From: Pelagibacterium sediminicola
Lineage (GTDB): Bacteria > Pseudomonadota > Alphaproteobacteria > Rhizobiales > Devosiaceae
Assembly (NCBI RefSeq): GCF_003390885.1
Contig: NZ_QMEL01000001.1
Coordinates: 124,001 to 188,000, forward strand
Direction: 5' to 3'
DNA length: 64,000 bases
The notes below the pieces were generated by a model. That model saw only the letters and a list, made by a program, of their open reading frames with translations, had not been told where the DNA came from and did not search any database. The translations under genes and the position numbers were made by a program. Below are positions 1 through 52,752 of this stretch, one piece after another (positions within the stretch are counted from its first letter, which is position 1; the number at the start of each line of letters is the position of its first letter).

Positions 1-390
1 CTGGTTGATGTAATAGCTGCGGCATTCGGGGTCGACGTCGCTGTCCCAGGTCATGACCAGAACATCGCGCTGCATGGCGCGCTTGAGGGCCGGGCATAGA
101 CCGTCGGGCGAAACGGACGATACGATCACCGAGTCGTAGCCCTGGTTGACGTAGTTGTTGATAAACTGCACCTGGCTGGAAACGCTCGGCTCGGTCGGAC
201 CATCATAGGTCACGTTCACGCCGATCTCTTCGCCGGCCGCGACCGCGCCCTGGCCGCCGCTGGTGAAAAAGCCCACACCCACGAGCTTGGGAATAAAGGC
301 GATATCCTGGGCAATCGCAGGCACGGACCCTGCCGACAAGGCAACCAGCGCCGTGGACAGCACGGCTATACTTTTCAGAGTTTTTCTCAT
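1..390 (-). CDS. lsrB: AI-2 ABC transporter substrate-binding protein LsrB (partial, C-terminus beyond window)
   Basis: Periplasmic receptor for phospho-free autoinducer-2, delivering it to LsrACD. Only the first 130 codons are present; the gene runs off the left edge. A Sec signal peptide is visible (basic start, hydrophobic core, AIA cleavage site near residue 27). The mature start reads [15 protein letters not shown], then [25 protein letters not shown] and [14 protein letters not shown], close to enterobacterial LsrB as I recall it; the Lys of FIPK and the Asp of TWDSD fall where AI-2 ligands are known. The ATG at 390 overlaps the lsrD stop (ATGA), so the two are translationally coupled. 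A RhaS-type sugar receptor is the alternative, but the complete lsr context argues against it. Confidence 0.93.
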
Positions 391-1406
391 TTGATTTTCT
401 CCTCCACAATAGGCCGGGATCTGGCCGCCATGGCCTTGTTTCCCCGGGCAACGAAACCGGCCAGCATTGCACTACCGAGGCGCAATGCGACCACACCCAC
501 CAGCAACCCGCCTGAGAGAGCGCTGGAAACTTGACTGGGCACGCCGGCCATCTGCAGCCCTTGCTGCAGAAAGCCGATAACGAATACAGCGATGACCGTA
601 CCCAGCACCGAACCCTGTCCTCCGTAGATCGAGGCACCACCGAGCACGGCCGCCGTGATCGCTGGCAGCAGGGTCGCCGTTCCAAGATCGACGCGTGCCG
701 ATCCGAAATACGATGAGAGCATCAGCCCGGCGATCGCGGCGCACAGGCCGGTGAGCAAATAGGTGACCGTCTGGATGCGCTCGACCGGCAGGCCCGAATA
801 GCGCGCAGCGTTTTCGGACTGGCCGACGAGATAGACCGAGCGGCCGAACCGTGTGAAATGCAGCAATACGATGAAAATCAGCGCCATGATCACGAACAGG
901 ATCAGCATGGCCGGGATGCCGAAGACCTCAAGATAGCCGAACTCTGTGAAAATGCCGGGAAAATTGCCGATGCCTTCATAACCGCCCGCACCGACAGCGC
1001 CTGACAGAACCGTGGCAGCTCCACCGAAAAGGTAGAGACTCCCGAGGGTTACGACCAAGGGCTGAATCTTTGAGAAGTGAATGATCGCAGCGTTCATCGC
1101 TCCAGCGCATACCCCGGCGGCCAGGGCCGCCAGAATGGACAGGGGCAGCGGCACGCCGAAGAAATTGGCCACGCCGAAAACGATGGCGCACAACCCCACC
1201 AGCGAGGCGAACGATACATCGATCCCCCCGCCGATGATCACCAGCGTGAGCGGGACGGCCACGATCCCGATATGGATGAAATCCGACGTTCCGTAGAGCA
1301 GATTCGAGGGGTTGAGGAACCGTGGGTTGATCAACCCGAACACGACGAACTCGAGTATCAGGATCAGGACAAGTACCGCTTCCCAGCGCAGGACAAGCCG
1401 TTTCAT
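387..1406 (-). CDS. lsrD: AI-2 ABC transporter permease LsrD
   Basis: Inner-membrane permease (339 aa) of the Lsr AI-2 importer, BPD_transp_2 family with about ten membrane segments. Segments such as [44 protein letters not shown] and [17 protein letters not shown] match LsrD of enterobacteria as I recall it, more closely than generic ribose permeases. It overlaps lsrB by 4 bases downstream and the lsrC stop by 4 bases upstream, so lsrA-C-D-B is read as one tightly coupled transcript. The C-terminal tail after the last membrane segment is basic and variable. Substrate assignment rests on the whole cluster. Confidence 0.93.
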
Positions 1407-2452
1407 CGCGTGGCCTCCGAGGAAACGTGCAGACTCTCCGCCGCTTTTTCTTTGCTTGCAGGCTTTGCGTTCTGCCCGCCATGGCCGATTGCATAGCGCT
1501 TGGCACGGATGCGCTTGTCGAGCGCAAGCCGGATGCGGCCATCGAGCATCAGAACGCTCAACAGAATCGCCCCGGCAATGAAATCGTTCCAGAAGGCAGG
1601 AATGCGCAGGAAAACCAGCGCACTATCGATTGCGGTGAGAAAGATCACAGAGATGAACACGCCCACTGCGGAGCCCACACCGCCGAGCAGACTGACGCCG
1701 CCCAGAACGTTGGCCGCAATGGCCTTCAGTTCGATGCCGTTGCCCGCTTGATTTGGGATAAAACCGATCTGCGCGGCAAACACGACTCCCGCGAGCGCCG
1801 CGCAAGCACCGGCCCCCACAAAGGCACTGAACTCGATCCAGCGCGCGGGAATGCCGAGATGCCGCGCCGCTTCCCGATTGTCGCCGACGGCAAAGAAATA
1901 GCCGCCCGACCGCGTCCGCCGCAGGAAGAACCAGAGCCCTGCAAAGACCAGCAGAACGATAATCGTCAGGACCGAGCCGCCCCAGCCCAGATTGCTGGCA
2001 AGAGATTTTATCGATTGCGGCAACGCCTCGATCCATCGGCCACCGGTCAGCGTCAGCATCAGGCCGCGATAAAGGCCCAGCGTTCCCAGCGTGGCAACGA
2101 TAGAAGGAACACCCAGCCCGGCCACCAGCGCGCCGTTGAGAGCACCTGCCGCCGCGCCCACGAGAACACATAAGCCGATAGCGAGCGGCAGGCTGATGCC
2201 TGCGTTGAGCGCAAGCCCGAGAACGGCAGCGGACAGCCCCAGGACCGAGCCACTCGAAACGTCGATATTGCGCGTGATGATGACCAGCATGGTGCCGAAC
2301 GAAATCAACATCAACACCAGACTGTTGGCCATCACGACCGCAATCGTGTTGCCAGAGAGAAAACCCGGAGCAGCGGCCCCGATGATGCCGAATGTCAGAA
2401 TGGTGATCGCAAACAGCGAGGCAACCCGATTGCGGGCGAACAGCTCAAACAT
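1403..2452 (-). CDS. lsrC: AI-2 ABC transporter permease LsrC
   Basis: Second membrane permease (349 aa) of the AI-2 importer, paired with LsrD. It is a BPD_transp_2 protein with NIDVSSGSVLGLSA, the conserved membrane loop of RbsC-type permeases, and a VLGGVSLLGGVGS turn near the C-terminus. I chose the ATG at 2452 (MFELFARNR), which overlaps the lsrA stop by 8 bases, over an in-frame start 14 codons upstream inside lsrA. The tail past the last hydrophobic segment (about 30 residues, Lys/Ala/Glu rich) is longer than usual for the family and may be variable. Confidence 0.9.
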   Translation of the reverse strand: MFELFARNRVASLFAITILTFGIIGAAAPGFLSGNTIAVVMANSLVLMLISFGTMLVIITRNIDVSSGSVLGLSAAVLGLALNAGISLPLAIGLCVLVGAAAGALNGALVAGLGVPSIVATLGTLGLYRGLMLTLTGGRWIEALPQSIKSLASNLGWGGSVLTIIVLLVFAGLWFFLRRTRSGGYFFAVGDNREAARHLGIPARWIEFSAFVGAGACAALAGVVFAAQIGFIPNQAGNGIELKAIAANVLGGVSLLGGVGSAVGVFISVIFLTAIDSALVFLRIPAFWNDFIAGAILLSVLMLDGRIRLALDKRIRAKRYAIGHGGQNAKPASKEKAAESLHVSSEATR

Positions 2453-3938
2453 GGGCGTGCTCCCGCGCTCCGAACGCCAGTTTGCCGATGGCATCGACCG
2501 AAGAACCCGCTGGCAGGGTGCCTTCCAGTTCTCCGAACGCCATCACCAGGATGCGGTCCGAGAGGTGGACGATCTCGTCGAAATCCGAGGAGATCAGAAG
2601 AATGGCGACACCCTCAGCGGCAAGGGTGCGAACAAGCGCGTAAATATCGTTGCGGGCGGCGACATCGACGCCGCGCGTGGGTTCATCGAGTATCAACACC
2701 TTGGGTTTGGCCGCCAGACACTTGGCCAGCAGCACCTTTTGCTGATTGCCGCCCGACAGTCGGCGTGCCGGTTGCTCTGCGCTTTCGCACTTGATGTCCA
2801 TGGCGTCCCGGAACCGCGAGAAAGCTTCGCGCTCACGTTTCGGGCTCAGCATGAACGGCAGTTTATGCATCAGATAGGATGACGCGTTCCAATAGAGCGG
2901 CGCATCGAGGAATAGCCCGTATTGCTGGCGGTCCTCGGGAAGATAGACAAGCCCGGCATCAACGCATCGGGCGGGCGCGCGCTTGTCGAGCACCTTGCCG
3001 TCGAGCGAGATTGAACCGCCATGCGCACGACGCAGACCGAACACGGTTTCGGCCAATTCGGTTCGACCTGCCCCGACGACACCGGCCAGCCCTGCGATCT
3101 CCCCACCGCTCAACGACAAGGACACCGAGCGAAAGCCTTCGCCCGACAGGTTGTCGATCACGAGGCGCGCTTCGCCCTTGGCAGCGTTGACCGCTGTGCT
3201 GGCTGCAGGCGATGCACCCGTACCGGCCCGTGTCATCGCGGTCACGATCTGATCGTCCCCGTAGTCACCGAGCGCACCGGAAAGCACGATGGCTCCATCG
3301 CGCAGCACCGAAATATCGTGGCAGATTTCGCGGATTTCGCGCAGCTTGTGCGAAATGAAGAATATCCCGACACCTTTGGCCGCCAACGCCCGCATGCGGG
3401 CAAAAAGCGCCTCGACCTCATGAGGGGTGAGGGCAGATGTCGGCTCGTCGAGGATGAGAACCCTGGCTTGGCGAACAAGCCCTCGCAAAATCTCCACAAT
3501 CTGGCGGTCGGCGATTTCCAGCGTTGCCGCCTGCGCGTCCAGATCCAGCGATACCGAGAGCTGCTTTATCAACTCGATAACCCGCGAACGCAGTTGCGAT
3601 GGCGATTTTGCCAGCCCCATGCAGATGTTTTCGAGAACGGTCTGGTTGCCGAAAATATGCGCCTCCTGGGGTACAAGATAGAGTCCCAGCCTTTGCGCTT
3701 TGGCGGCTGACGGGCGCTCGAGGCGCTCGCCGCCGATCACGACCGTACCATCGTTTGGGCTGACCAGACCTGCGATCACTTTCATGAGGGTCGACTTGCC
3801 CGCGCCATTGCCGCCCAGCAGTGCGTGGATCTGGCCCGCGCGAAGGCAGATCGAAACGCCCTTGAGCACGGAAACCGGGCCGTATCGCTTCCAGACATCC
3901 CTGACCTGGATCAGCGTATGTGCGTCATCGCTGGCCAT
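2445..3938 (-). CDS. lsrA: AI-2 ABC transporter ATP-binding protein LsrA
   Basis: Cytoplasmic ATPase (497 aa) with two fused ABC domains, powering AI-2 import through LsrCD. The first domain has Walker A GGNGAGKST at about residues 42-50 and Walker B LILDEPTSAL. The second has the degenerate GVVGAGRTE P-loop usual in sugar-type duplicated ATPases, the signature LSGGNQQKV and LILDEPTRGVD. Start chosen at ATG 3938 (MASDD), preceded by GGAGGG; a start 12 codons further up at 3974 lacks a Shine-Dalgarno and would fall inside the candidate operator. It is the first gene of lsrACDB, transcribed away from lsrR. Confidence 0.92.
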   Translation of the reverse strand: MASDDAHTLIQVRDVWKRYGPVSVLKGVSICLRAGQIHALLGGNGAGKSTLMKVIAGLVSPNDGTVVIGGERLERPSAAKAQRLGLYLVPQEAHIFGNQTVLENICMGLAKSPSQLRSRVIELIKQLSVSLDLDAQAATLEIADRQIVEILRGLVRQARVLILDEPTSALTPHEVEALFARMRALAAKGVGIFFISHKLREIREICHDISVLRDGAIVLSGALGDYGDDQIVTAMTRAGTGASPAASTAVNAAKGEARLVIDNLSGEGFRSVSLSLSGGEIAGLAGVVGAGRTELAETVFGLRRAHGGSISLDGKVLDKRAPARCVDAGLVYLPEDRQQYGLFLDAPLYWNASSYLMHKLPFMLSPKREREAFSRFRDAMDIKCESAEQPARRLSGGNQQKVLLAKCLAAKPKVLILDEPTRGVDVAARNDIYALVRTLAAEGVAILLISSDFDEIVHLSDRILVMAFGELEGTLPAGSSVDAIGKLAFGAREHAHV

Positions 3939-3968
3939 AAAACTGGGCCCTCCACCTGGCGACGATCC

Positions 3969-4004
3969 GAACATATCATTTGAAACGCGTCAATACATTT
4001 GTTC
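3969..4004. promoter_or_regulatory. Candidate LsrR operator 1 (lsrA side)
   Basis: Inverted repeat with arms GAACA (3969-3973) and TGTTC (4000-4004), about 30 bp upstream of the lsrA start. Its right half, CAATACATTTGTTCA at 3991-4005, resembles the right half of the second repeat next to lsrR (CAATATCATTGTGTTCA). SorC-family regulators bind long, spaced palindromes, and the position suits repression of lsrACDB. Function is inferred. Confidence 0.55.
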
Positions 4005-4090
4005 ATCAATGTTGCAGCCGGCCAGCAGGAAGAGCCCGATCAGGTGCCAAAAACGCGAGAATATGCTGAAATTTTCAATCCGCCCACAGC

Positions 4091-4130
4091 TTGACGTGAA
4101 CAATTGCTTCATACAATATCATTGTGTTCA
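4091..4130. promoter_or_regulatory. Candidate lsrR promoter with LsrR operator 2
   Basis: Inverted repeat TGAACA (4097-4102) / TGTTCA (4125-4130), ending 14 bases before the lsrR start. A possible -35 TTGACG (4091-4096) and a -10-like CAATAT (4114-4119, spacer 17) lie on or inside it, so a bound repressor would block the polymerase. The similarity to the lsrA-side repeat supports one regulator controlling both directions, as known for LsrR in enterobacteria. Promoter hexamers are weak matches. Confidence 0.5.
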
Positions 4131-4144
4131 ACGGGGGTGCAGAC

Positions 4145-5092
4145 GTGACGGACGACAACGGACTGGCTGAAAGCGAGAGCGAGATTCTCGCGCGAGTTGC
4201 CTGGTATTATTACCACGACGGCCTGACGCAGAACGAGATCGGCAACCGGCTCAATCTCAATCGCATCAAGGTATCCCGGCTCCTCGAAATGGGCCGCCGC
4301 ACGGGGGTGATCGATGTCAAGATCAACTCCCGCTATCAGCGCTGCATGGAACTCGAAGACGTGTTGCGTCGCCGTTACGGGCTGGCGGAAGCCTATGTGA
4401 TCCCGGCCCTTGCCGGCGAACAGGAAAGCGTCCGGCTCGGCCAAGCGGCTGCCCAGTTCCTCATGCAAAGACTGCGCCCCGGCGATCTGCTCGCCGCAGG
4501 GTGGGGCGCTACCGTGAGCAGCACGATTCAAAAACTCGGGCACGTCGCCAACGAACGCGGGATAGGGCTGGTGAGCATGACCGGAGGCGTGGGTACGTAT
4601 GTCGATGGAATGCGAGCGGCCAACTGGGGTGCCAACGTGCATCTGGTTCCCGCACCATTGGTGGTCGGGGACCCCGATGTCGCCCGGGCGCTGAGCACCG
4701 AACCCGCTATCCGGAACCTGCTGGATATGGCACTGGATGCAACCTATCAGCTCGTCGGGATAGGAGAACTTACCCAATCATCGACCGTCGTGCGGTCGGG
4801 TTATGTTTCGCCGGACGAAGTCGAGCCGCTGCGCCGCAAGGGCGCGGTCGGCGATATTTTATGCCGCTTTTACGACCGCGAGGGCCGGGTTCTCGATCTG
4901 CCATTCCACGAGCGCGTCATCGGGGTACGTCTCGAAGCGCTGGCGCAATCCTCCAAAGTTGTGGCTGTCGCGGGCGGAGCCGGGAAACTTGGCGGAATCC
5001 GGGCAGCATTGCTGGGCAAGTTCGCCTCGATACTGGTCACCGACGAAACGACCGCCGAGGCACTGGTCACCGAAAAGGAAGAGAAGCGATGA
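4145..5092 (+). CDS. lsrR: SorC/DeoR-type transcriptional repressor LsrR
   Basis: Repressor (315 aa) of the lsr genes, expected to release DNA on binding phospho-AI-2. The N-terminal helix-turn-helix (about residues 18-47, RVAWYYYHDGLTQNEIGNRLNLNRIKVSRLLE in pieces) and the SorC sugar-binding domain (SMTGGVGTYVDGM, VPAPLV, RSGYVSPDE, RKGAVGDIL) match LsrR as I recall it. The GTG at 4145 has GGGGG 7 bases upstream; an in-frame GTG at 4124 would lie within the operator repeat and lacks a good ribosome site. The stop overlaps the lsrK start (ATGA), so regulator and kinase are coupled. Confidence 0.92.
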   Translation: MTDDNGLAESESEILARVAWYYYHDGLTQNEIGNRLNLNRIKVSRLLEMGRRTGVIDVKINSRYQRCMELEDVLRRRYGLAEAYVIPALAGEQESVRLGQAAAQFLMQRLRPGDLLAAGWGATVSSTIQKLGHVANERGIGLVSMTGGVGTYVDGMRAANWGANVHLVPAPLVVGDPDVARALSTEPAIRNLLDMALDATYQLVGIGELTQSSTVVRSGYVSPDEVEPLRRKGAVGDILCRFYDREGRVLDLPFHERVIGVRLEALAQSSKVVAVAGGAGKLGGIRAALLGKFASILVTDETTAEALVTEKEEKR

Positions 5093-6651
5093 GCCGATAC
5101 TATCTGGCAATCGATGCAGGCACCGGAAGCGGCCGTGCCGTGATATTCGATGATACCGGGGCACAACGCGGGGCCAGCCAGGCTGAATGGTGGCACAAAC
5201 CGGACCCCCGTTTTGAAGGCTCGATGGACTTCGATCTCGAGCGCAACTGGCTGCTGCTTGGTCAATGCATCAACCGGGCGATCGCCGAAGCGGGGCTTTC
5301 GGGTGATGATATCGCTGCGGTCAGCGCCACCAGCATGCGCGAGGCCATCGTTGCGTACGACGCATCGGGAGCAGCCATTTGGGCCTGCGCCAATGTTGAT
5401 AGCCGCGCGGTCTCGCAGGTCCGCAGGCTGCAGCGCGAACGGCCTGAATTCGAGAAGGCGCTTTACGACAAAAGTGGCCAGACGTTTGCGCTGGGCGCAT
5501 TGCCGCGCCTGCTCTGGCTGAGCGAGAACCTGCCCGAGATCTATGGCCAGATCGACAAGATATCGATGATCTCGGACTGGGTTCTGGCCCAGCTTTCCGG
5601 AGTTATCGCCAGCGACCCCTCCAATGGCGGCACCACCGGCCTGCTCTCTCTGGCCACCCGAGACTGGACGGTCGGGCAACTCGAAAAGGTCGGCCTGAGT
5701 TCGTCCATCCTCCCCCATATCGTCGAGCCGGGCTCGGTCATCGGCACTGTGACTGCCACGGCGGCCAGGCATACGGGCCTAGCTGCCGGAACGCCTGTTG
5801 TCATGGGCGGGGGGGACTGCCAGACCGGAACCGCGGGCCTGGGGCTGGTCAACAAGGGACAATGCGCTGTTCTGGGCGGCACGTTCTGGCAACAGATCGT
5901 CAATGTGGGCACCGATCTGGTCGATCCGCAAATGAATCTGCGGTTCAATCCCCATGTGATACCAGGACAGAATCAGGCAGAGGCCATCAGCTTTTTCGTC
6001 GGTGCCGCGATGCGCTGGTTCCGCGATGCGTTTGGTCAGGAGGAAATGGCGCGCGCACGCGCGTCGGGCGCAGATGCCTATACTCTGCTCGAAGAACAAT
6101 CCCTGTCCATTCCGCCCGGCGCATACGGGATCATCCCCATTCTTTCCGATGTCATGCGCTATGGCCGGTGGTACCATGCCGCGCCATCTCTGCTGAACTT
6201 GTCTATCGACCCTGAAAGAGCCGGCAAGGCCGCCATTTTCCGGGCGCTGCAGGAAAATGCGGCAATTGTGGCCGCACGCAATCTCAATGCGATTTTCGCC
6301 CTCAGTGCCGAAATTCCTGAACGCATCGTGTTTGCTGCCGGCGCTGCGAAATCGCCTCATTGGGCGCAGCTTCTGTCCACCGTGACAGGGCTTCCCGTCG
6401 TTACCCCGCAGGTCAAGGAAGCTACCGCGCTTGGATGCGCTGCCGCCGCCGCCATCGGTGCCGGTGCCTTCAGGGACCATGAGGAAGCAGCGGATCGCTG
6501 GGTCAAATGGGACAGGACATTCGAGCCGGAGGCGGACCTTAAACCTTTATACGACGAAGCGGGGGAGCGGTGGGCCAGAGCCTATCGCGCGCAGCGCGAA
6601 TTGGTCGACGAGAACATCACGACTTCCATGTGGAAGGCCCCAGGTCTTTAA
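5089..6651 (+). CDS. lsrK: Autoinducer-2 kinase LsrK
   Basis: FGGY-family kinase (520 aa; enterobacterial LsrK is about 530) that phosphorylates imported AI-2, trapping it and creating the LsrR inducer. The N-terminal phosphate loop DAGTGSGRAVIFD, the stretch VSATSMREAIVAYD, WACANVDSRA, MISDWVLAQLSG, DPSNGGTTGLL, VLGGTFWQQIVNV, NPHVIPGQNQAE and the very C-terminus TTSMWKAPGL all track LsrK, so this is a strong call over xylulokinase or glycerol kinase. The ATG at 5089 overlaps the lsrR stop. The open frame extends further upstream inside lsrR but that part is an out-of-frame shadow. Confidence 0.96.
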   Translation: MSRYYLAIDAGTGSGRAVIFDDTGAQRGASQAEWWHKPDPRFEGSMDFDLERNWLLLGQCINRAIAEAGLSGDDIAAVSATSMREAIVAYDASGAAIWACANVDSRAVSQVRRLQRERPEFEKALYDKSGQTFALGALPRLLWLSENLPEIYGQIDKISMISDWVLAQLSGVIASDPSNGGTTGLLSLATRDWTVGQLEKVGLSSSILPHIVEPGSVIGTVTATAARHTGLAAGTPVVMGGGDCQTGTAGLGLVNKGQCAVLGGTFWQQIVNVGTDLVDPQMNLRFNPHVIPGQNQAEAISFFVGAAMRWFRDAFGQEEMARARASGADAYTLLEEQSLSIPPGAYGIIPILSDVMRYGRWYHAAPSLLNLSIDPERAGKAAIFRALQENAAIVAARNLNAIFALSAEIPERIVFAAGAAKSPHWAQLLSTVTGLPVVTPQVKEATALGCAAAAAIGAGAFRDHEEAADRWVKWDRTFEPEADLKPLYDEAGERWARAYRAQRELVDENITTSMWKAPGL

Positions 6652-6729
6652 GAATTCCAATTCCGTTCTTCAGGATACGACACAAAGCCCAGGGCTTGGG
6701 TTCTGGCGCAATCAAGAAAGGTAATCAAA

Positions 6730-7041
6730 ATGCTTATCCAGATGGTTTCGATCACGGTCAAACCGGGTCATGTGGAGGAGTTTCTGGACGCTTTCCGCAT
6801 TAACTACGAGGGAACGCGACGTGAACCCGGCAATCTGCGGTTCGATGTCCTGCGTGATCCCGAGGACGAGCATCGGTTCGTTGTCTATGAGGTCTTTGAG
6901 GGCGCAGAGGCATTGGAGGCGCATCGGTCAACGCCGCATTACTCTGAGTGTGTGCGTCGGATTGATCCGATCATCGATGGCCCCAGAACCAAACAGTATT
7001 TCAATCCAGTCATGGCCGAGTTTATGCCAGGCGAGGCATAG
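6730..7041 (+). CDS. lsrG: (4S)-4-hydroxy-5-phosphonooxypentane-2,3-dione isomerase LsrG
   Basis: Small cytoplasmic ABM-fold protein (103 aa) acting on phospho-AI-2 after LsrK, thereby clearing the LsrR inducer. Segments GNLRFDVLRDPED, FVVYEVFEGAEALEAH, TPHYSECV and GPRTKQYFNPVM match LsrG as recalled. It lies 78 bp after lsrK on the same strand, behind AAAGG, so it probably belongs to the lsrRK transcript rather than to the transporter operon as in E. coli. A small hairpin (AGCCCAGGGCTTGGGTT, near 6688-6704) separates it from lsrK. Confidence 0.93.
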   Translation: MLIQMVSITVKPGHVEEFLDAFRINYEGTRREPGNLRFDVLRDPEDEHRFVVYEVFEGAEALEAHRSTPHYSECVRRIDPIIDGPRTKQYFNPVMAEFMPGEA

Positions 7042-7169
7042 GACATCTGTGATCTGTCCCGCAACCAAGCTCGGAGACGTTGTGGCATCGTCTCCGCTCG
7101 CCCCGATTCGATAACCGGCGATCGCGCTCCCGAGCCCAATAAATAGTACCCACTTCTTGTGGAAACACT

Positions 7170-7904
7170 CTACCGGTAGATGAGCGCGAGCCCGGGAATT
7201 CTTTCGATCAGTTCGGGGTCCTGATTGAAAATGTATTCAAGGTTGCCGCGCGCGGTGCGCGCGTGCTCGCGGGCGATGAACTCGGCCCGCGCGCCCTCGC
7301 GGGCGGCGATCGCGTTGAGGATGGCGCGGTGCTGGTCCTGCGCCGAGCGCAGGGAGCGCTTGAAGGCGGCGATATCGAGTTCGTTGGGCAGGAACGCAGA
7401 GGGCGAGGCAAAGGGTAGCGCGGCGGACCGCTCGACCTCGCGCCGCACGACCTCGCTGCCCGAAAGCCCGGCCAGTTCGGAATGGAACCGGGCGTTGAGA
7501 TCGGCATAGGTATCGAAATCGACATCATCAACGCCGACCCCGAAACAGGTGTCGAGCTGGGCAACGATCTCGCGCATGCGCTTGAGGCCCTCGGGCGAGG
7601 CGCCCCTCTCGGCGGCAAGCCGGGCGGCGGTGCCTTCGAGTACACCGCGCAACTCGATGGAATCGATCACATCGGCATAGCCGAAGCGCCGGACGACGAA
7701 CCCGCCACTGGGCAGCCGGTCGAGCAGGCCCTCCTCGGCGAGCCGCGAGAGCGCCTCGCGCACCGGGGTGCGGGAAATCTGAAGCGATTCGGCCAGCGAC
7801 ACCTCGAACAGACGCATCCCGCCAGGCAACTCGCCATTGATGATCTTCTCGCGCAGCTCGATGACGGCCCGCCGTCCATGGGTTGCGACTTCGCTGCTTT
7901 TCAT
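7170..7904 (-). CDS. GntR-family transcriptional regulator, FadR/VanR (FCD) subfamily
   Basis: DNA-binding regulator of 244 aa. The N-terminal winged helix (about residues 8-72) contains GGMRLFEVSLAESLQISRTPVREALSRLAEEGLL, typical of GntR proteins; the C-terminal part is an all-helical FCD ligand domain with D/N..H metal-type residues (NARFHSEL, QHRAIL, H in AREHARTA). The ATG at 7904 follows GGGGAAG; a second ATG 11 codons upstream is possible. It is the last gene of the leftward group with the dehydrogenase, PurU and dioxygenase, so it is the likely local regulator of the C1/aromatic cluster. Its ligand cannot be read from the sequence. Confidence 0.85.
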   Translation of the reverse strand: MKSSEVATHGRRAVIELREKIINGELPGGMRLFEVSLAESLQISRTPVREALSRLAEEGLLDRLPSGGFVVRRFGYADVIDSIELRGVLEGTAARLAAERGASPEGLKRMREIVAQLDTCFGVGVDDVDFDTYADLNARFHSELAGLSGSEVVRREVERSAALPFASPSAFLPNELDIAAFKRSLRSAQDQHRAILNAIAAREGARAEFIAREHARTARGNLEYIFNQDPELIERIPGLALIYR

Positions 7905-7969
7905 TGTCTTCCCCGGTTTTTCCCCACAAGGTTTCATAGCACCGGCCTGGGGTGCAAGGCGAGACGCGG

Positions 7970-8836
7970 TCAGGGCTTGTCCACGGCAAGCCGGCCCTCG
8001 AGGGCATTTGCGGCGGTGGTTTCGAGGCCGTCGCCCTCCAGAACCGGCCCCGATTTCCCCATCAACGCCTGCACCCGCGCGATCTCGCGCGCCAGCCCGC
8101 CATTGAGGCCCAGGGCATCGAGCGTTGCCGCGCTCTCTTCCATTTCCGCCGCCCGCCTCTTGCCGTGGCGCGTCGTGCGCTCGAACTGGTAGGCGGCAAA
8201 ATCGGGCCAGCCCAGGCCGGGATAGGAGCTCGAGAGCGAGGCGAGGATCTCGTCGAAACACCCCGAGGCTCTCGCGGCTAGGAGGGCCTCGACGGTGATC
8301 GCCTCGAGCCCCTTGACGAACAGCGAGCGCACCATCTTGATGGCGGTCGCAGCGCCGGCCGCCTCCCCTGCGATGGACGCGGAAAAGCCCAGATCGAGCA
8401 GATGCGGCAGCATGGCCGCTGCCGGCGCGCCGGCGATCAGTACCGGGGTGGCGTGCTTTTTCGGGTGCACGGGGGCCATCACGGCCATGTCGAGATAATG
8501 GCCGCCCGCCGCTTCGATCCGTTGCGCGGTCTCGCGCTTGCGCCCGGGCGAGACCGAATTGATGTCGATCAGCGTCTGGCCCCGCCGCAGACGGGCAAGG
8601 AGTGGCTCGACGGCGAGAAGGCTCTGGTCGGCGGTGACCGCGCTTATGATCCAGTCCATATCGGCGAGCCCTGAAAGCGAAACGGGGGTGGCGCCGCGCT
8701 CTTCCATCGCCGCCCGCATCGCCCCCTCATCGGCATCGAGCAGAATGTCATGGGCGCACACCGAAAGGCCGGGCCGGGCCAGCCCTTCGTGAAAGGCGCG
8801 CGCCGCCTCGCCATATCCCAGAAATCCGATACGCAC
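7970..8836 (-). CDS. NAD(P)-binding dehydrogenase, 6-phosphogluconate/3-hydroxyisobutyrate dehydrogenase-like with DUF1932
   Basis: Protein of 288 aa with an N-terminal Rossmann fold (GFLGYGEAARAF at residues 4-15) and the beta-hydroxyacid dehydrogenase pattern: ISAVTADQ, DINSVSPGRK in the substrate loop, and IKMVRSLFVKGLEA, which supplies the catalytic Lys. The C-terminal helical part is the DUF1932 type. Such enzymes oxidise a hydroxy-acid or similar alcohol with NAD(P). In this cluster it could oxidise a ring-cleavage product or side chain; that is inference. It reads in the same direction as the GntR gene (66 bp before it) and is separated from purU by a repeat-filled gap. Confidence 0.82.
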   Translation of the reverse strand: MRIGFLGYGEAARAFHEGLARPGLSVCAHDILLDADEGAMRAAMEERGATPVSLSGLADMDWIISAVTADQSLLAVEPLLARLRRGQTLIDINSVSPGRKRETAQRIEAAGGHYLDMAVMAPVHPKKHATPVLIAGAPAAAMLPHLLDLGFSASIAGEAAGAATAIKMVRSLFVKGLEAITVEALLAARASGCFDEILASLSSSYPGLGWPDFAAYQFERTTRHGKRRAAEMEESAATLDALGLNGGLAREIARVQALMGKSGPVLEGDGLETTAANALEGRLAVDKP

Positions 8837-8847
8837 CTTTATCCGTC

Positions 8848-9136
8848 CGCCTCCCTGCTAGAGCATTACAGGTTTTGACGGAAACGCCCAGCTTCCGCCA
8901 TCCTGGAAGAATCGCGCTGGATTCCGGCAAGAAATGCCGGAATGACAATGGTGTTTTCTACTAGCTCTCCCTCCCTCCAATGTCACCCCGGCATTTATTG
9001 CCGGGGACCAGAAGGGCGCCTCCGCCGACACGGTCCTTCTTGATTCCGTCAAAACAGGAGCTCTAAGTCTTTATTATATCGCGTTTCGCTTACGCGGCCC
9101 TTCGGGTCCGAACCGCATCCATTTATGCTGGAAACG
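8848..9136. repeat. Intergenic repeat cluster between the DUF1932 gene and purU
   Basis: No gene is seen here. The stretch holds two REP-like hairpins, ATTCCGGCA..TGCCGGAAT (8921-8943) and CCCCGGCA..TGCCGGGG (8986-9006), followed by AATGACA and GACC tails typical of such elements, and a degenerate copy of the longer dispersed repeat also found at 14447, 20692 and 60106 (TCGCGTTTC...TCCGAACCG around 9077-9115). The start ACAGGTTTTGACGGAAACG resembles 49827-49850. Confidence 0.75.
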
Positions 9137-9138
9137 GC

Positions 9139-10002
9139 CTATTTGGTGAACACCACCGTCTTGGTCTTGTTGATCAGGACACGGTCTTCCAGATGCCATG
9201 TGACGGCGCGGGCCAGGACCCGGCGCTCGATGTCGCGGCCCTTGCGCACGAGGTCGTCGGGGGTGTCGGCATGGCTCACCGGCTCGACGTCCTGGCAGAT
9301 GATCGGCCCCTCGTCGAGATCGGCGGTGACGTAATGGGCGGTCGCCCCGATCATCTTCACCCCACGCTCATGGGCCTGATGATAGGGCCTGGCGCCCTTG
9401 AAGCCGGGCAGGAACGAGTGGTGGATATTGATGCAGCGCCCGGCAAGCCAGGCCGAAAAATCGTCGGAAAGAATCTGCATGTAGCGGGCCAGGACGACAA
9501 GTTCGGCGCCGCTCTCCTCGATGATCGCCTTCACCTGCGCTTCCTGTTCCGCCTTGGTGTCCTTGGAGATCGGCAGGTGATGGTAGGGAATGTTTTCCAT
9601 CAGCGTAAGGTTGAGCGCCTCGCGCGGGTGATTGGAAACGATCGCCACCGGGTCGATGTTGAGCTCGCCAATGCGGTTGCGGTACAATAGATCGCCAAGG
9701 CAGTGGTCGAATTTGGAGACCATGAACAGCACCTTGCGCTTTGCTCCCGCCACGCGCAGCGTGTAATCGAGGCCGAACCGCTCAATCTCCTCATCCAGCC
9801 CGGCCCGGAACGCGGCGTCCTCCCCTTGCATCGAAAAGCCCACGCGCATGAAGAACATGCCGGTGGTGGAATCGTCGAACTGGTGCGCCTCGAAGATATC
9901 GCCGCCATGGGTGGCGATCCGCGTCGCCACCGCCGCGACGATGCCGCTGCGGTTATCGCACGAAAGGGTGAGGATGTAGTCTGTCACTTCAAATGCCTCC
10001 AT
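9139..10002 (-). CDS. purU: Formyltetrahydrofolate deformylase PurU
   Basis: Hydrolyses 10-formyl-tetrahydrofolate to formate and free tetrahydrofolate (THF). The protein has 287 aa, the usual size: an N-terminal ACT domain (residues 7-80, [24 protein letters not shown]) and a formyltransferase-fold catalytic domain with the Asn-His-Asp triad at N192, H194 ([20 protein letters not shown]) and D230 (ADLDEGPI). The spacing of H194 and D230 equals that in glycinamide ribonucleotide transformylase. Next to a MetF-like and a MetE-like gene it probably drains C1 units and recycles THF rather than serving purine synthesis. Confidence 0.95.
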
Positions 10003-10019
10003 TGCGGCCAGGTCCTGTT

Positions 10020-10135
10020 GCCGCGTTCGATAGCGTTGTTGTCATGGTACGCGAGGCGCGATCGCTCGGGATTCCGGCAATGAATGCCGGAATGACATTG
10101 GTGTATTTTGCGCGATCCCGCTCCCTCTTAGGTGT
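10020..10135. repeat. REP-like palindromes between purU and the dioxygenase
   Basis: A hairpin ATTCCGGCA..TGCCGGAAT at 10071-10093, followed by AATGACATTGGTGT, is nearly identical to the one at 8921. The rest of the gap shows no coding potential. Confidence 0.7.
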
Positions 10136-10140
10136 CACGC

Positions 10141-11100
10141 TCAGTCTTTCCGGACCGGCGGGGTGCCGTGTGTGTGGAAAGTGTCGATGGTCTTGAGCCC
10201 CCAGGCCTGTCCCTTCTTGCGGTCGGTCTCGGTCCAGGTGACGGTCTGCCAGTCGGGGGCAAGGATCAGCCGCGCGCCCGCATTGGCAAGTTCGACCCGG
10301 TTGCCCGCCGGCTCCCAGACATAGAGAAAGAACGTGCCCTGAATGGCGTGCTTGTGCGGGCCGGTCTCGATATGGACCCCGTTCTCCAAAAAGATGTCGG
10401 CAGCGCGCAAAATGTCCTCGCGCTGGTCGGTGGCGTAGGTGACGTGGTGGAACCGGCCATGGCCCCCGCCATGCTCCTCGGTGCAGGCAAGATCGTAGGT
10501 CTTGTTGTTGACCGTGAACCAGCAGCCCCCCAGCCGGCCATTGTCGAGCCTGATCTGTTCGGTGACGCGCGAACCGAGGCAAGTGACCATGAAGTCGCGA
10601 AAGGCCGTCACATCGGCGGCGAGCAGGTTGAGGTGGTCGAGCCGGCGCGGGGAGGCGCCTTGCGCATGGAACCGGCTCGCCATGTTCTTGAGCGCGGGCC
10701 GGTCGGCCTCGTCGGGCGCGTAGCGCCTTGTTTCCCAATAAAGCTCGAAGACGTGCCCGAACGGGTCCTCGAAGCGGAAGGACTTTCCGTGCCCAAGATC
10801 GCCTTCGGTCCAGCCGATGACCTTGTAGTCCGAGGCCTCGATCGCCTTGACACGCCGCGCGAGGGCTTCGGGCGAAGAGACGCGATAGGCGATATGGCCC
10901 ACCCCGGTCGTCGAATGGCGGGTGAGCTTCAATGAATGAAATTCGTAATCGTCCCAGGCGCGCAGATAGGCCGAACCCCCCTCCTGCCCCGAGAGTTTCA
11001 GGCCATAGACCCGCGTGAAGAAATCGAGGCTCTCCTCGAACCTGTCGGTATAGACCTCCACATGCCCGAGGTGGGCAACGTCAAATATCGGCTCGCTCAT
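10141..11100 (-). CDS. Type I extradiol (catechol 2,3-) dioxygenase, two-domain VOC protein
   Basis: Fe(II)-dependent ring-cleaving dioxygenase of 319 aa with two vicinal-oxygen-chelate modules. The second module carries the 2-His-1-Glu set: H156 (RLDHLNLL), H218/H219 (GRFHHVTYATD) and E270 (NRVELANAG). H251 and Y260 (HAIQGTFFLY) keep the nine-residue spacing of the second-shell catalytic His/Tyr known in extradiol enzymes. The ATG at 11100 is chosen because GGGAGGAAG sits just upstream; an open frame 41 codons longer lacks this. The natural substrate is unknown; neighbours (PurU, MetF-like, MetE-like) suggest a catechol produced by O-demethylation of a methoxyaromatic. Confidence 0.85.
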   Translation of the reverse strand: MSEPIFDVAHLGHVEVYTDRFEESLDFFTRVYGLKLSGQEGGSAYLRAWDDYEFHSLKLTRHSTTGVGHIAYRVSSPEALARRVKAIEASDYKVIGWTEGDLGHGKSFRFEDPFGHVFELYWETRRYAPDEADRPALKNMASRFHAQGASPRRLDHLNLLAADVTAFRDFMVTCLGSRVTEQIRLDNGRLGGCWFTVNNKTYDLACTEEHGGGHGRFHHVTYATDQREDILRAADIFLENGVHIETGPHKHAIQGTFFLYVWEPAGNRVELANAGARLILAPDWQTVTWTETDRKKGQAWGLKTIDTFHTHGTPPVRKD

Positions 11101-11296
11101 TTGCTTCCTCCCTTGGCCACCCGGGATGGCGCCGCGCACATTAGGACCCCATATAAGGGCGGTCCAGCCCCGATATGGACGTTTTATTGTATGCATTATG
11201 CGGCAGGCCAGAAATACACACAATGGGAAATCGCGCGGGAACGGCGCGATTTTAAGGGAATCCAGGCGAGGGCGCTTGATTCCGACCTGCGAAACG

Positions 11297-11306
11297 ATGT
11301 ATACAT
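11297..11306. promoter_or_regulatory. Palindrome ATGTATACAT, candidate GntR operator
   Basis: Perfect 10-base palindrome 24 bases before the metF-like ATG, in the divergent gap between the dioxygenase and the metF-like gene. Related, imperfect TTGTATGCAT (about 11187-11196) and TTGTGTACAT (12325-12334, before the metE-like gene) are nearby. GntR/FCD regulators often bind GTATAC-centred palindromes, so the adjacent GntR protein is the obvious candidate. Function is inferred. Confidence 0.45.
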
Positions 11307-11330
11307 GATGGTGAAATCAGGAGGTCCGGC

Positions 11331-12254
11331 ATGACGATTTTGAACTTCGGGTCCAAGCACGCCGAAAAAGCGCCGAAAACCGGCGAGGTTTCCGCCATGA
11401 TCGAAGGCTTCTCGATCGAGGTGATGCCCCGGACCGCCGCCAAGGTCGAGGACTTCCGCGCCATCCTGCCGCAAGGCACGCGCGTCTATATTGCCCATAT
11501 CGATGGCACGCCCATTGAGGACATGCTGGCCACCGCCGCCCGGCTCCACGCCGAGGGTTTTGACGTGATGCCGCACTTCCCGGCCCGCTCGATCCCCGAC
11601 AAGGCGACGCTAGAGGACTGGATCAAGCGCTATCAGGACGCCGCCGATATCCGGCAGGCACTGCTGCTTGGCGGTGGCATCGCGACCCCGCGCGGCGAGC
11701 TGGACAGCTCCATCCAGCTCATCGAAACGGGCCTGTTCGACAAATACGGCTTTACGGACCTCCACATCGCCGGGCACCCGGAAGGCAACAAGGATATCGA
11801 CAGGGACGGCGGCAGCGCCATCGTCGACGAGGCGCTGAAGTTCAAGCAGGACTACGCCGCGCGCACCGATGCCCGGATGGCCATCGCCACCCAGTTCGCG
11901 TTCGACGCCGATGCGGTGATCGCCTGGGCCGAGCGCATCGCCGACATGGGCATCACGCTCCCCATCCATGCCGGGATCGCCGGGCCCGCCAAGCTCCAGA
12001 CGCTGATCCAGTTCGCGCTTTCGTGCGGTGTGGGCCCCTCGATCGGGGTGCTGCAAAAGCGGGCGCGCGACATTACCAAGCTGCTGGTGCCCTACGAGCC
12101 GACCGACGTGGTGGCCGGGCTCGCCGCCCATAAGGCGAAAAATCCCGACAGCCTCATTTCCCGGCTGCACGTCTTCCCGCTGGGCGGGATCAAGACGGCG
12201 GCCAACTGGATGGCCGAGAATGGCGGTCCGGCGGTGAGGGCCGCGGCGGGGTAG
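11331..12254 (+). CDS. Methylenetetrahydrofolate reductase-like flavoprotein (MetF family)
   Basis: Predicted FAD-dependent TIM-barrel enzyme (307 aa) interconverting 5-methyl-THF and 5,10-methylene-THF. Family marks are FSIEVMPR near residue 30, LLLGGGIATPRGE around 108-120 and DLHIAGHPEGNKDI around 140-155. AGGAGG stands before the ATG at 11331. It diverges from the dioxygenase and is followed by the MetE-like gene on the same strand. In THF-dependent O-demethylation systems of sphingomonads a MetF oxidises the methyl-THF formed; a similar catabolic role here is inferred from context, and ordinary methionine synthesis remains possible. Confidence 0.85.
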   Translation: MTILNFGSKHAEKAPKTGEVSAMIEGFSIEVMPRTAAKVEDFRAILPQGTRVYIAHIDGTPIEDMLATAARLHAEGFDVMPHFPARSIPDKATLEDWIKRYQDAADIRQALLLGGGIATPRGELDSSIQLIETGLFDKYGFTDLHIAGHPEGNKDIDRDGGSAIVDEALKFKQDYAARTDARMAIATQFAFDADAVIAWAERIADMGITLPIHAGIAGPAKLQTLIQFALSCGVGPSIGVLQKRARDITKLLVPYEPTDVVAGLAAHKAKNPDSLISRLHVFPLGGIKTAANWMAENGGPAVRAAAG

Positions 12255-12386
12255 CGCCCCTTGCAGAGCTGAAAACCGGGCGCCTTTTGCGGGCGAGCAA
12301 AGACTTGCCCGCACCGGGCAAGGTTGTGTACATGGACAGCACCGTCCACCGTCGCGAACCTTGGCGGCATCAAGGAGTATCTGCAC

Positions 12387-13511
12387 ATGTCCGTAAAGCC
12401 CCCGCCCTATCGCGCCGACCATGTCGGCTCGCTCCTGCGCAACGACGCGGTGAAAACGGCGCGCCACGAATTTTACGACGAAAAATCGATCGGCCGGGAC
12501 GCGCTGACCGCCGTCGAGGACGATGCGATCCGCGAGGCGATCAAGCTCCAGGAAGATGTCGGGCTGCCGGTGGTGACCGACGGCGAATTGCGCCGCTCAT
12601 TCTGGCACTACGATTTCATGGAAGACCTCGAAGGCTTCAAGTTCGTCGAGCGGGACGTGGCGACCGGCCACAACTTCAAGGGCGCCAATACGAGGCCGAT
12701 CTTTCCCACCATTACCGGCCCGGTCGATTTCCCCGCCGACCATCCGATGCTCGAGCATTTCAAGTTCGTCGCCGCCAACACCTCGGTGATGCCGAAAATC
12801 TCGATCCCCGGCCCCTCCTGCTGCCATTTCCGCGTCGCCAAGGCCGATATCGGCCACAAGCCCTATGCCGACGATCTCGAACTGTTATTCGCCGATCTCG
12901 CCAAGGCATACAAGAAGGCCGTGAATGCCTTTTACGAGGCCGGGTGCCGGTACCTGCAGATGGACGACATCTTCTTTGCCTATCTGTGCGACCCCAAGAT
13001 CCGGGCCGAAAAGCAGGCCGAAGGGCTCGACCCGGACTGGCTGATCGACCAGTACGCCAAGATGATGCATGATGCGATCGACGGACGCCCGGACGACATG
13101 ATGATCGGCATGCATATGTGCCGGGGCAATTTCAAATCGACCTGGATCGCCGAGGGCGCATACGATCCGGCGGCCGATGCGGTGTTCAACAAGACCGGCG
13201 TCGATATCTATTTCATGGAATACGACACCGACCGCGCCGGCGGGCTCGAGCCGCTGCGCCTCTTGCCCAAGGGTAACAAGCGCGTACTGCCGGGCTTCAT
13301 CACCACCAAATCTGGTGAACTGGAAACGGTTGACGATCTCAGGCGCAAGTTCGACGAAGTGGCCAAATACGCCGATCTCGACCAGTTCGGCATCGCCCCG
13401 CAATGCGGGTTCTCCTCGACCGAGGAAGGCAATGACATCACGATCGATGATCAGAAGCGCAAGCTCGAACTGGTGGTCAAAACCGCCGAGGCGATCTGGG
13501 GCGAGGTCTAG
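12387..13511 (+). CDS. MetE catalytic-domain-only methyltransferase (5-methyl-THF:homocysteine methyltransferase-like)
   Basis: Cobalamin-independent methionine-synthase-type protein of 374 aa, containing only the C-terminal catalytic barrel (full MetE is about 750 aa). The zinc ligands are all present: H243 and C245 (GMHMCRGN), E278 (YFMEYD) and C340 (PQCGFSS). DHVGSLLR at the start is typical of the YxjG/YxjH-type subfamily. ATG 12387 is chosen because AAGGAG lies 9 bases upstream. Short proteins of this class often move methyl groups between unusual partners; with the PurU, MetF-like and dioxygenase genes it may accept or donate the methyl from an aromatic ether, which is speculation. A strong terminator follows. 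Confidence 0.85.
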   Translation: MSVKPPPYRADHVGSLLRNDAVKTARHEFYDEKSIGRDALTAVEDDAIREAIKLQEDVGLPVVTDGELRRSFWHYDFMEDLEGFKFVERDVATGHNFKGANTRPIFPTITGPVDFPADHPMLEHFKFVAANTSVMPKISIPGPSCCHFRVAKADIGHKPYADDLELLFADLAKAYKKAVNAFYEAGCRYLQMDDIFFAYLCDPKIRAEKQAEGLDPDWLIDQYAKMMHDAIDGRPDDMMIGMHMCRGNFKSTWIAEGAYDPAADAVFNKTGVDIYFMEYDTDRAGGLEPLRLLPKGNKRVLPGFITTKSGELETVDDLRRKFDEVAKYADLDQFGIAPQCGFSSTEEGNDITIDDQKRKLELVVKTAEAIWGEV

Positions 13512-13543
13512 AGCTCGGCTTGCCGGATGAAAGAGTTTGAAAG

Positions 13544-13569
13544 GCCCGGCGTTCTCGCCGGGCTTTTTT
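13544..13569 (+). terminator. Rho-independent terminator after the metE-like gene
   Basis: Perfect 8-bp stem GCCCGGCG / CGCCGGGC with a TTCT loop, followed by six T residues. It sits 32 bp after the metE-like stop codon and closes the metF-metE transcript. Confidence 0.92.
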
Positions 13570-13665
13570 ATCGGGACGGGGTCCCGATGATTGCCCGCAT
13601 CCGGAACAGGCCGGGCCGGCAGGCGTTCTTTTGTTGGTTGCCATTTTGCCAACAGGAGACCCGCG

Positions 13666-14159: not shown

Positions 14160-14513
14160 GAAGGGGCAGAGCCTCGCCCTGCCGGCTTTCCTTAGAGCAG
14201 GTCAGTATTTGATGGGATCGTCGGGGTCCCGCAACTGCGGCGGGTTCGGTCCGGCCCCCGGGAATAAATCCCGGGGTGACGGTGGAGTTTTAGGCAGCAG
14301 CTTGCCAAAATCACCAGTGTCATTCCGGTATTCATTACCGGCAATCCAGCGCGATCCTTCAAAACGCGCCGCGCTGTGCCGGTTCAATCAAAACCTGAAA
14401 CGATCTAGGGCCGTTCCTGTTTTGATAGAATCAAAACAGTGTCTCCAAGACTTTGATTTATCGCGTTTCCGAACCGAATAAGTGGTCGCCACTTATTCTG
14501 GGGACGCTCTAAT
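14160..14513. repeat. 402-bp gene-free gap filled with dispersed palindromic repeats
   Basis: No gene is seen between 14137 and 14537. The stretch holds REP-like hairpins CCCCGGG..CCCGGGG (14255-14276) and ATTCCGGTA..TACCGGCAAT (14322-14343), a module TCAAAACCTGAAACGATCTA (about 14388-14407) that recurs at 49988-50015, TTTTGATAGAATCAAAA (14420-14436), and a full copy of the 64-bp element (14447-14510) with the internal inverted repeat GAATAAGTGG..CCACTTATTC. The other full copies are at 20692-20755 and 60106-60169. Confidence 0.85.

Positions 14514-50604: not shown

Positions 50605-52752
<2,148 letters not shown>

Follow-up and report, generated by a model that had tools for sequence, protein, structure and literature searches.

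The window analyzed in this work is a stretch of 64,000 nucleotides from Pelagibacterium sediminicola (contig C25, positions 124001-188000). Its positions 7170 to 13511 hold six genes that a first-pass annotation had read as a cluster for aromatic O-demethylation, coupled to one-carbon metabolism, and for extradiol ring cleavage, in which MetF and PurU dispose of the methyl group. This general reading is supported by sequence and linkage, and each of the six genes is an open frame at its assigned position and matches Pfam or NCBIfam profiles. The minus strand carries a GntR/FCD regulator (7170..7937; PF00392 and PF07729), a DUF1932 dehydrogenase (7970..8836; PF09130, 3.4e-17), the 10-formyl-tetrahydrofolate (10-formyl-THF) hydrolase PurU (9139..10002; NF004684 with 386.8 bits and TIGR00655 with 328.2 bits, both above cut-off), and a VOC (type I) extradiol dioxygenase (10141..11100; PF00903), which is catechol-2,3-dioxygenase-like and scores 299.7 bits, below the cut-off of that model (320.2). 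Divergent from the dioxygenase gene, and separated from it by a gap of 230 bp, the plus strand carries a metF-like gene (11331..12254), whose product scores 21.2 bits on the MTHFR model, below the Pfam cut-off of 24, and a gene for a MetE-like protein of the PRK06520 subfamily that consists of the catalytic domain only (12387..13511; NF005085, 433.2 bits). It is likely that these genes represent one half of a split regulon for the catabolism of methoxylated phenolic compounds.

The first-pass annotation had stated that no demethylase of the LigM/GcvT type is present. This is correct within the window, but the genome was found to encode a LigM outside it, preceded by the same operator core as genes of the cluster. 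The novelty that had been claimed for the pathway rested on the missing demethylase and is lost with this finding. The protein in question is a 467-amino acid GCV_T protein encoded on the minus strand at C25:108787-110190, which is 13.8 kb beyond the left edge of the window and about 21 kb from gntR. It scored 643.8 bits against the NCBI LigM equivalog model NF047885 (cut-off 580), as compared to 554.8 bits on the DesA model, which is below the cut-off of 800, and it aligned with the solved LigM structure 5x1i over residues 2-465 of 467 (E 1.1e-167). There is one other GCV_T match in the genome, which is presumably GcvT. In G002, a genome of the same genus, a protein with 92% identity to this LigM is encoded beside gntR, and the order metE-metF-dioxygenase-purU-gntR-ligM, followed by two further genes, forms one continuous run. 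These two genes match proteins of 191 and 1017 amino acids (the latter PolA-like by eye) encoded to the left of ligM in the P. sediminicola genome, where ligM and gntR are separated by about 21 kb of other DNA comprising acyl-CoA genes, transporters (assigned by eye), and lsr autoinducer-2 genes. Since G002 shows a single run, and since homology to its 157-bp gntR-ligM spacer stops both at approximately C25:110266 and at the gntR stop codon (approximately window position 7172), this island is interpreted here as having inserted into a preexisting cluster; a loss of the intervening DNA in G002 is a possible alternative. The right part of the island occupies positions 1..7172 of the window and contains matches to the LsrA and LsrK models above cut-off and an LsrR-like match below it. 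Autoinducer-2 uptake and processing genes extend over positions 1-7041, and an LsrB match above cut-off spans the window edge.

The recurrence of this gene set was assessed at the best 80 MetF loci, for which gene presence was scored within the stretch examined around each gene. Fourteen of these loci also contain the dioxygenase and, with the window and G002, make up 16 loci that have both genes. LigM was found at 9 of the 14, as well as in G002 and the source genome, whereas it was not seen in L046, L047, L088, L099, and L105, of which L047 and L105 have their examined sequence ending at gntR. The two genes gntR and ligM adjoin in G002, L022, L040-L044, L049, L053, L056, L062, L079, L085, and L097. 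Among the loci compared, the full six-gene set recurs only in Devosia sp. Root436 (L040), where gal genes are inserted between purU and the dioxygenase gene; G002 is devoid of DUF1932, and L047 of PurU. PurU was detected beside metF in the window, G002, L040, and L035 (51% identity), and thus does not count among the general components of the cluster. The notion that these genes are conserved together consequently holds in part: the set is commoner than chance, but it is not fixed and is rare among the 60 nearest relatives, of which two besides the source genome have the MetF-like protein at 60% identity or more. The idea that MetF marks this cluster alone was rejected, as 66 of the best 80 loci have no dioxygenase in the stretch examined.

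A further link between the two separated parts is provided by a predicted operator. A perfect palindrome, ATGTATACAT, is centered 29 bp before metF (11297..11306), occurs once in the 64-kb window, and is the probable binding site of the GntR regulator. Copies of its core, TGTATACA, with one mismatch are located in the divergent promoter toward the dioxygenase gene (11188..11195) and before metE (TGTGTACA, 12325..12332). The core before the distant ligM is centered 36 bp upstream; the MetF homologue thus shares its putative operator core with ligM. The core was counted in 23 sequences with a total of 467,479 bases, namely, the window and 22 loci chosen for LigM, the dioxygenase, or GntR. This set contains 60 exact cores, as compared to 0-2 in the five first-order Markov surrogates by which the chance level was estimated, and 48 of the 60 are within -150..+20 of a cluster gene. 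Exact cores precede ligM in 15 of 17 cases, metF in 15 of 22, and gntR in 14 of 19; for metE, the figures are one of four for exact cores and four of four when one mismatch is permitted. Of the seven metF genes devoid of a site, six (L041, L043, L044, L049, L056, and L085) are located closely behind ligM on the same strand, which is not the case for that of L053. In the same 23 sequences, no exact core was found before DUF1932 (14 genes), purU (3), the dioxygenase gene (16), or gal genes, and there was none at four gal operons devoid of LigM and this GntR (L155-L158). Given that the palindrome or its core precedes metF, ligM, and, with one mismatch, metE, a single GntR regulon probably spans these three genes, with PurU beside them, in a scheme similar to that of Sphingobium lignivorans SYK-6, and the GntR protein is its probable repressor. 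A scan of positions 11050-13650 for sigma-70 promoters produced no match. A sequence that differs from the palindrome by one mismatch, ATGTATACAA, was noted at window positions 51792-51801, about 15 bp before pobA (50605-51777, minus strand), which encodes a 4-hydroxybenzoate 3-monooxygenase (TIGR02360, above cut-off) and is divergent from a gene that is AraC-like by eye; the regulon may extend to this gene. At L079 (1897-3788), the same operator core stands ahead of genes for an alpha/beta hydrolase and a LigB-type dioxygenase; these are placed between gntR and DUF1932 and are possibly a methylgallate branch.

In the one-carbon part of the proposed scheme, LigM would transfer the methyl group of vanillate or 3-O-methylgallate to THF. 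The MetF-like protein would then convert 5-methyl-THF into 5,10-methylene-THF, a housekeeping FolD, which is assumed, would generate 10-formyl-THF, and PurU would release formate and THF, while the MetE-like protein would pass part of the methyl groups to homocysteine; GntR would repress ligM, metF, and metE via ATGTATACAT. The closest solved structure to the MetF-like protein is 7xg9 (E 2.2e-42), which we take to be the SYK-6 enzyme that oxidizes 5-methyl-THF. No match to PurU other than the cluster protein is above cut-off in the genome. It could be argued that MetF and the MetE-like protein serve methionine synthesis alone and are chance neighbors of the remaining genes, as MetF relatives of Rhodobacteraceae are found beside apparent parts of a methionine synthase. 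This is highly unlikely. The genome has a separate MTHFR-family MetF on C39 and a MetH on C43, so that the cluster proteins are additional copies, and metF, metE, and ligM have the operator core in common. Furthermore, in a tree of 100 MetF proteins, in which several of the joins close to the root involve long branches, the window protein is placed inside supported clades of Hyphomicrobiales with 13 rows (98/91) and 21 rows (99/94). In the latter, 14 members have LigM in the stretch examined and five more have the dioxygenase, leaving L037 and L038 with neither; the neighboring metF in the tree are from Rhodobacteraceae and without LigM.

The function of the MetE-like protein is of particular relevance, since the first-pass annotation had proposed that this zinc protein itself demethylates the aromatic ether, making LigM dispensable. 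The protein has the catalytic domain only, with no match to the N-terminal folate-binding domain, and its gene adjoins metF and is probably part of the same regulon, all of which would be compatible with such a role. Against it stand the presence in the genome of a LigM above its curated cut-off with the same operator core, and the occurrence of the MetE-like gene in the stretch examined of only 4 of the 16 loci with dioxygenase and MetF (window, G002, L040, and L047), a patchier distribution than that of LigM. In addition, the Ser, Glu, and Asp residues for homocysteine and the His, Cys, Glu, and Cys residues for zinc are kept in seven of seven rows (six of these residues were placed in an alignment with 3rpd and the Ser by its motif only; the list of residues is that given for methionine synthases in the accessible part of PMC7857596). 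One relative of the protein is also found among genes that have no annotated aromatic function. On these grounds the demethylase role was rejected and is hardly to be credited, and the protein is a probable methionine synthase. It resembles the core methionine synthases MesA-MesD and 1ypx (E 2.3e-99) in having the catalytic domain only and in its zinc and homocysteine residues (PMC7857596); PRK06520 does not appear in the accessible text of the paper on MesA-MesD. A MetE-like gene with 63% identity was also noted on a Roseinatronobacter plasmid (L163, 6995-8098 and 12564-13448), where some 4.5 kb separate it from a DUF1932-LysR pair and the stretch examined contains neither LigM nor the dioxygenase.

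Clear links also emerge between the dioxygenase and the genes for gallate degradation. PIG-L, RraA-like, and PrpF genes, corresponding to galB, galC, and galD, are located beside the dioxygenase gene at 14 of the 16 loci with dioxygenase and MetF. In a set of 44 listed plasmid records of the dioxygenase clade with at least 76% identity, galC, for which 60 of 156 records were available, was found within 3 kb of the dioxygenase gene in at least 37, although near-identical Agrobacterium plasmids account for 19 of them. Of the remaining seven records, H77, H78, H80-H82, and H84 are not covered by these galC records, and H83 has no gal genes within 9 kb. On one Agrobacterium plasmid, a gene annotated as tannase/feruloyl esterase is located behind the operon of dioxygenase and gal genes. 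In the genome under study, galB and galC (C35:223.5-224.9 kb) neighbor a tricarboxylate transporter gene, and galD is located at C1:70.7 kb. GalC and GalD exceed the curated cut-offs of TIGR02798 and NF033377, respectively, GalB matched 5cgz with an E value of 4.9e-92, and the match to the oxalomesaconate isomerase 6p3j has an E value of 4.7e-154. The LigB family (PF02900) had no match in the genome at E<=0.001, whereas 4 of 14 control genomes gave matches. Because galBCD are present and no LigB-family match exists, the window enzyme is the only extradiol candidate found that could feed GalBCD, although no search aimed at other type I dioxygenases was made. Operon context makes a type I gallate dioxygenase its probable identity. 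The enzyme would convert gallate into 4-oxalomesaconate, from which GalD, GalB, and GalC, encoded elsewhere in the genome, would produce pyruvate and oxaloacetate, and protocatechuate would be directed to PcaGH.

The dioxygenase, a protein of 319 amino acids, has the VOC fold, and its three His-His-Glu metal ligands are invariant across the 23 rows aligned, among which one G002 gene is represented twice. In all 23 rows, a Tyr is present in the column of the second-shell acid-base His (His200) of homoprotocatechuate dioxygenase (HPCD), the enzyme by which the roles of the metal ligands are assigned. A Tyr at this position is also found in 9wgj (E 3e-103; named catechol 1,2-dioxygenase by its depositors), which has the same fold and metal ligands, whereas the type I enzymes 7q2a and 3lm4 share fold and ligands but have His. 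From type I catechol 2,3-dioxygenases and their relatives, the window enzyme differs by its gal operon context. The accessible part of the AromaDeg paper assigns gallate dioxygenases to the LigB family and does not name gallate among the type I substrates that it gives (PMC4250580). A literature search by titles and abstract openings, in which subscription papers were mostly beyond reach, revealed no type I gallate dioxygenase.

An alternative is that the dioxygenase opens protocatechuate (4,5-cleavage) instead of gallate, that the DUF1932 protein oxidizes the resulting semialdehyde to pyrone dicarboxylate, and that a hydrolase produces 4-oxalomesaconate. Protocatechuate is also the product that LigM would form from vanillate, several lineages have a DUF1932 dehydrogenase together with the dioxygenase, and pobA, whose product makes protocatechuate, has the operator-like site. 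Such a route is nevertheless unlikely, given that PcaH, PcaG, and PcaB are present above cut-off in the genome, which also has pcaQ, and that the possible tannase speaks for gallate. In addition, no evidence of the pyrone hydrolase LigI, which was itself not used as query, came from the three Amidohydro_2 proteins that the genome encodes, and the pyrone route was rejected on this basis. One of the three matches a fuconolactonase model below cut-off, whereas the other two share 74% identity and are encoded near a CoA ligase; when one of these was compared with solved structures, the match was 3irs. Their surroundings (C25:29.8-38 kb and 41-50 kb; L153 and L154) comprise acyl-CoA synthetase, SDR, and acyl-CoA dehydrogenase genes, a MarR-like gene, and the two amidohydrolases, followed by pca genes of ortho-cleavage, and perhaps constitute a hydroxycinnamate-to-protocatechuate route. 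As for the DUF1932 dehydrogenase, it adjoins gal genes in several lineages, and relatives with about 60% identity are found in tricarballylate (tcuAB) clusters on two Rhodobacterales plasmids (L160, 6992-7867; L161, 7001-7864). These neighbors suggest a tricarboxylate substrate, and the protein perhaps acts on a tricarboxylate intermediate.

The likeliest new part of the system is the unusual ring-opening enzyme, the rest being a LigM/MetF system of known type that has been split. A broader proposal, to which we assign slightly less than an even chance, is that the VOC enzyme founds a family of type I gallate dioxygenases with Tyr in place of the acid-base His, which replaces LigB-type GalA/DesB in galB/dioxygenase/galC/galD operons, many of them plasmid-borne, across Hyphomicrobiales and Rhodobacterales, and which is wired here to a LigM regulon with a core MetE that takes the methyl group to methionine. 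A number of observations weigh against the regulon, the gallate assignment, or both. No gal gene adjoins the dioxygenase gene in the window and in G002, and none was found within 9 kb of a relative with 78% identity in Pantoea (L159). No NCBIfam model matched the annotated tannase, which may instead be a feruloyl esterase. Confidence in the split regulon and in the new family was lowered slightly, since the tannase is known by its annotation only and no gal genes adjoin the dioxygenase gene in the window and G002. The replacement of the acid-base His by Tyr may mean that the chemistry of the dioxygenase differs. LigM at E<1e-100 was detected in 3 of the 60 nearest genomes besides the source genome and in the stretch examined of only 12 of the best 80 MetF loci. 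With respect to the operator, the loci counted are mutually related, some sites assigned to gntR may belong to the divergent neighbor, and 5 of the 19 gntR genes have no exact operator upstream (window, L021, L022, L040, and L162, with that of G002 listed as well). Finally, one family is encoded behind metF in 55 of the best 80 loci, and the one member of it that was scanned is a Pterin_bind protein, a type found in split methionine synthases; the MetF lineage can therefore also serve methionine synthesis.

Among the known systems, that of SYK-6 is closest in its one-carbon part. This strain combines a THF-dependent LigM and a MetF homologue that runs oxidatively within one regulon (PMC12585457), and the combination of LigM with a reversed MetF is also described in the accessible part of PMC6888825. 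The system studied here shares with the SYK-6 LigM-MetF(S6MTHFR)-LigH system a LigM and an apparently oxidative MetF homologue in one putative regulon, but differs in that the cluster has PurU and no LigH, a GntR regulator in place of the MarR-type DesR, a MetE-like gene, and a ligM cut off by the island. At this locus, metF and ligH do not form an operon with ligM, although no search for ligH was made elsewhere in the genome. The one-carbon half is not new, because similar gene sets have been reported in many other bacteria (PMC12585457). A further known system is the cmu chloromethane pathway of Methylorubrum extorquens CM4, in which, according to the accessible part of PMC3621897, an extra MetF2, FolD, and PurU oxidize methyl-THF to formate; there, the methyl group enters via the corrinoid proteins CmuA/CmuB and no aromatic ring is involved. 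Homologues of GalB, GalC, and GalD are shared with the GalA-GalD-GalB-GalC system of Pseudomonas putida KT2440 and with Pseudomonas sp. NGC7, from which the present system differs by its VOC-type dioxygenase and the absence of a LigB-family match in the genome. In the part of PMC12314914 that is accessible, the syringate pathway of NGC7 is described as controlled by a GntR (VanR2) and a LysR (GalR) regulator, and the VanR2 operator is given as GGGATCCC, not ATGTATACAT.

These data show the build and probable regulation of a LigM-type pathway for lignin phenolics outside the sphingomonads, including an operator that can be tested. They also draw attention to a widespread enzyme, now recorded only as VOC family protein or catechol 2,3-dioxygenase, as a candidate for opening the gallate ring. 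If this assignment is true, plant-associated bacteria that were scored as negative for gallate or methylgallate for want of GalA/DesB will need to be re-scored.

The intergenic regions of the cluster contain a REP-like palindromic repeat, which was identified in a repeat search at 8911..9011, with further copies at 10061-10127 and 14237-14287. These repeats (core ATTCCGGCAA..AATGCCGGAAT) are located in the gaps between DUF1932 and purU and between purU and the dioxygenase gene, the second of which is occupied by galD-galC-galB in L040.

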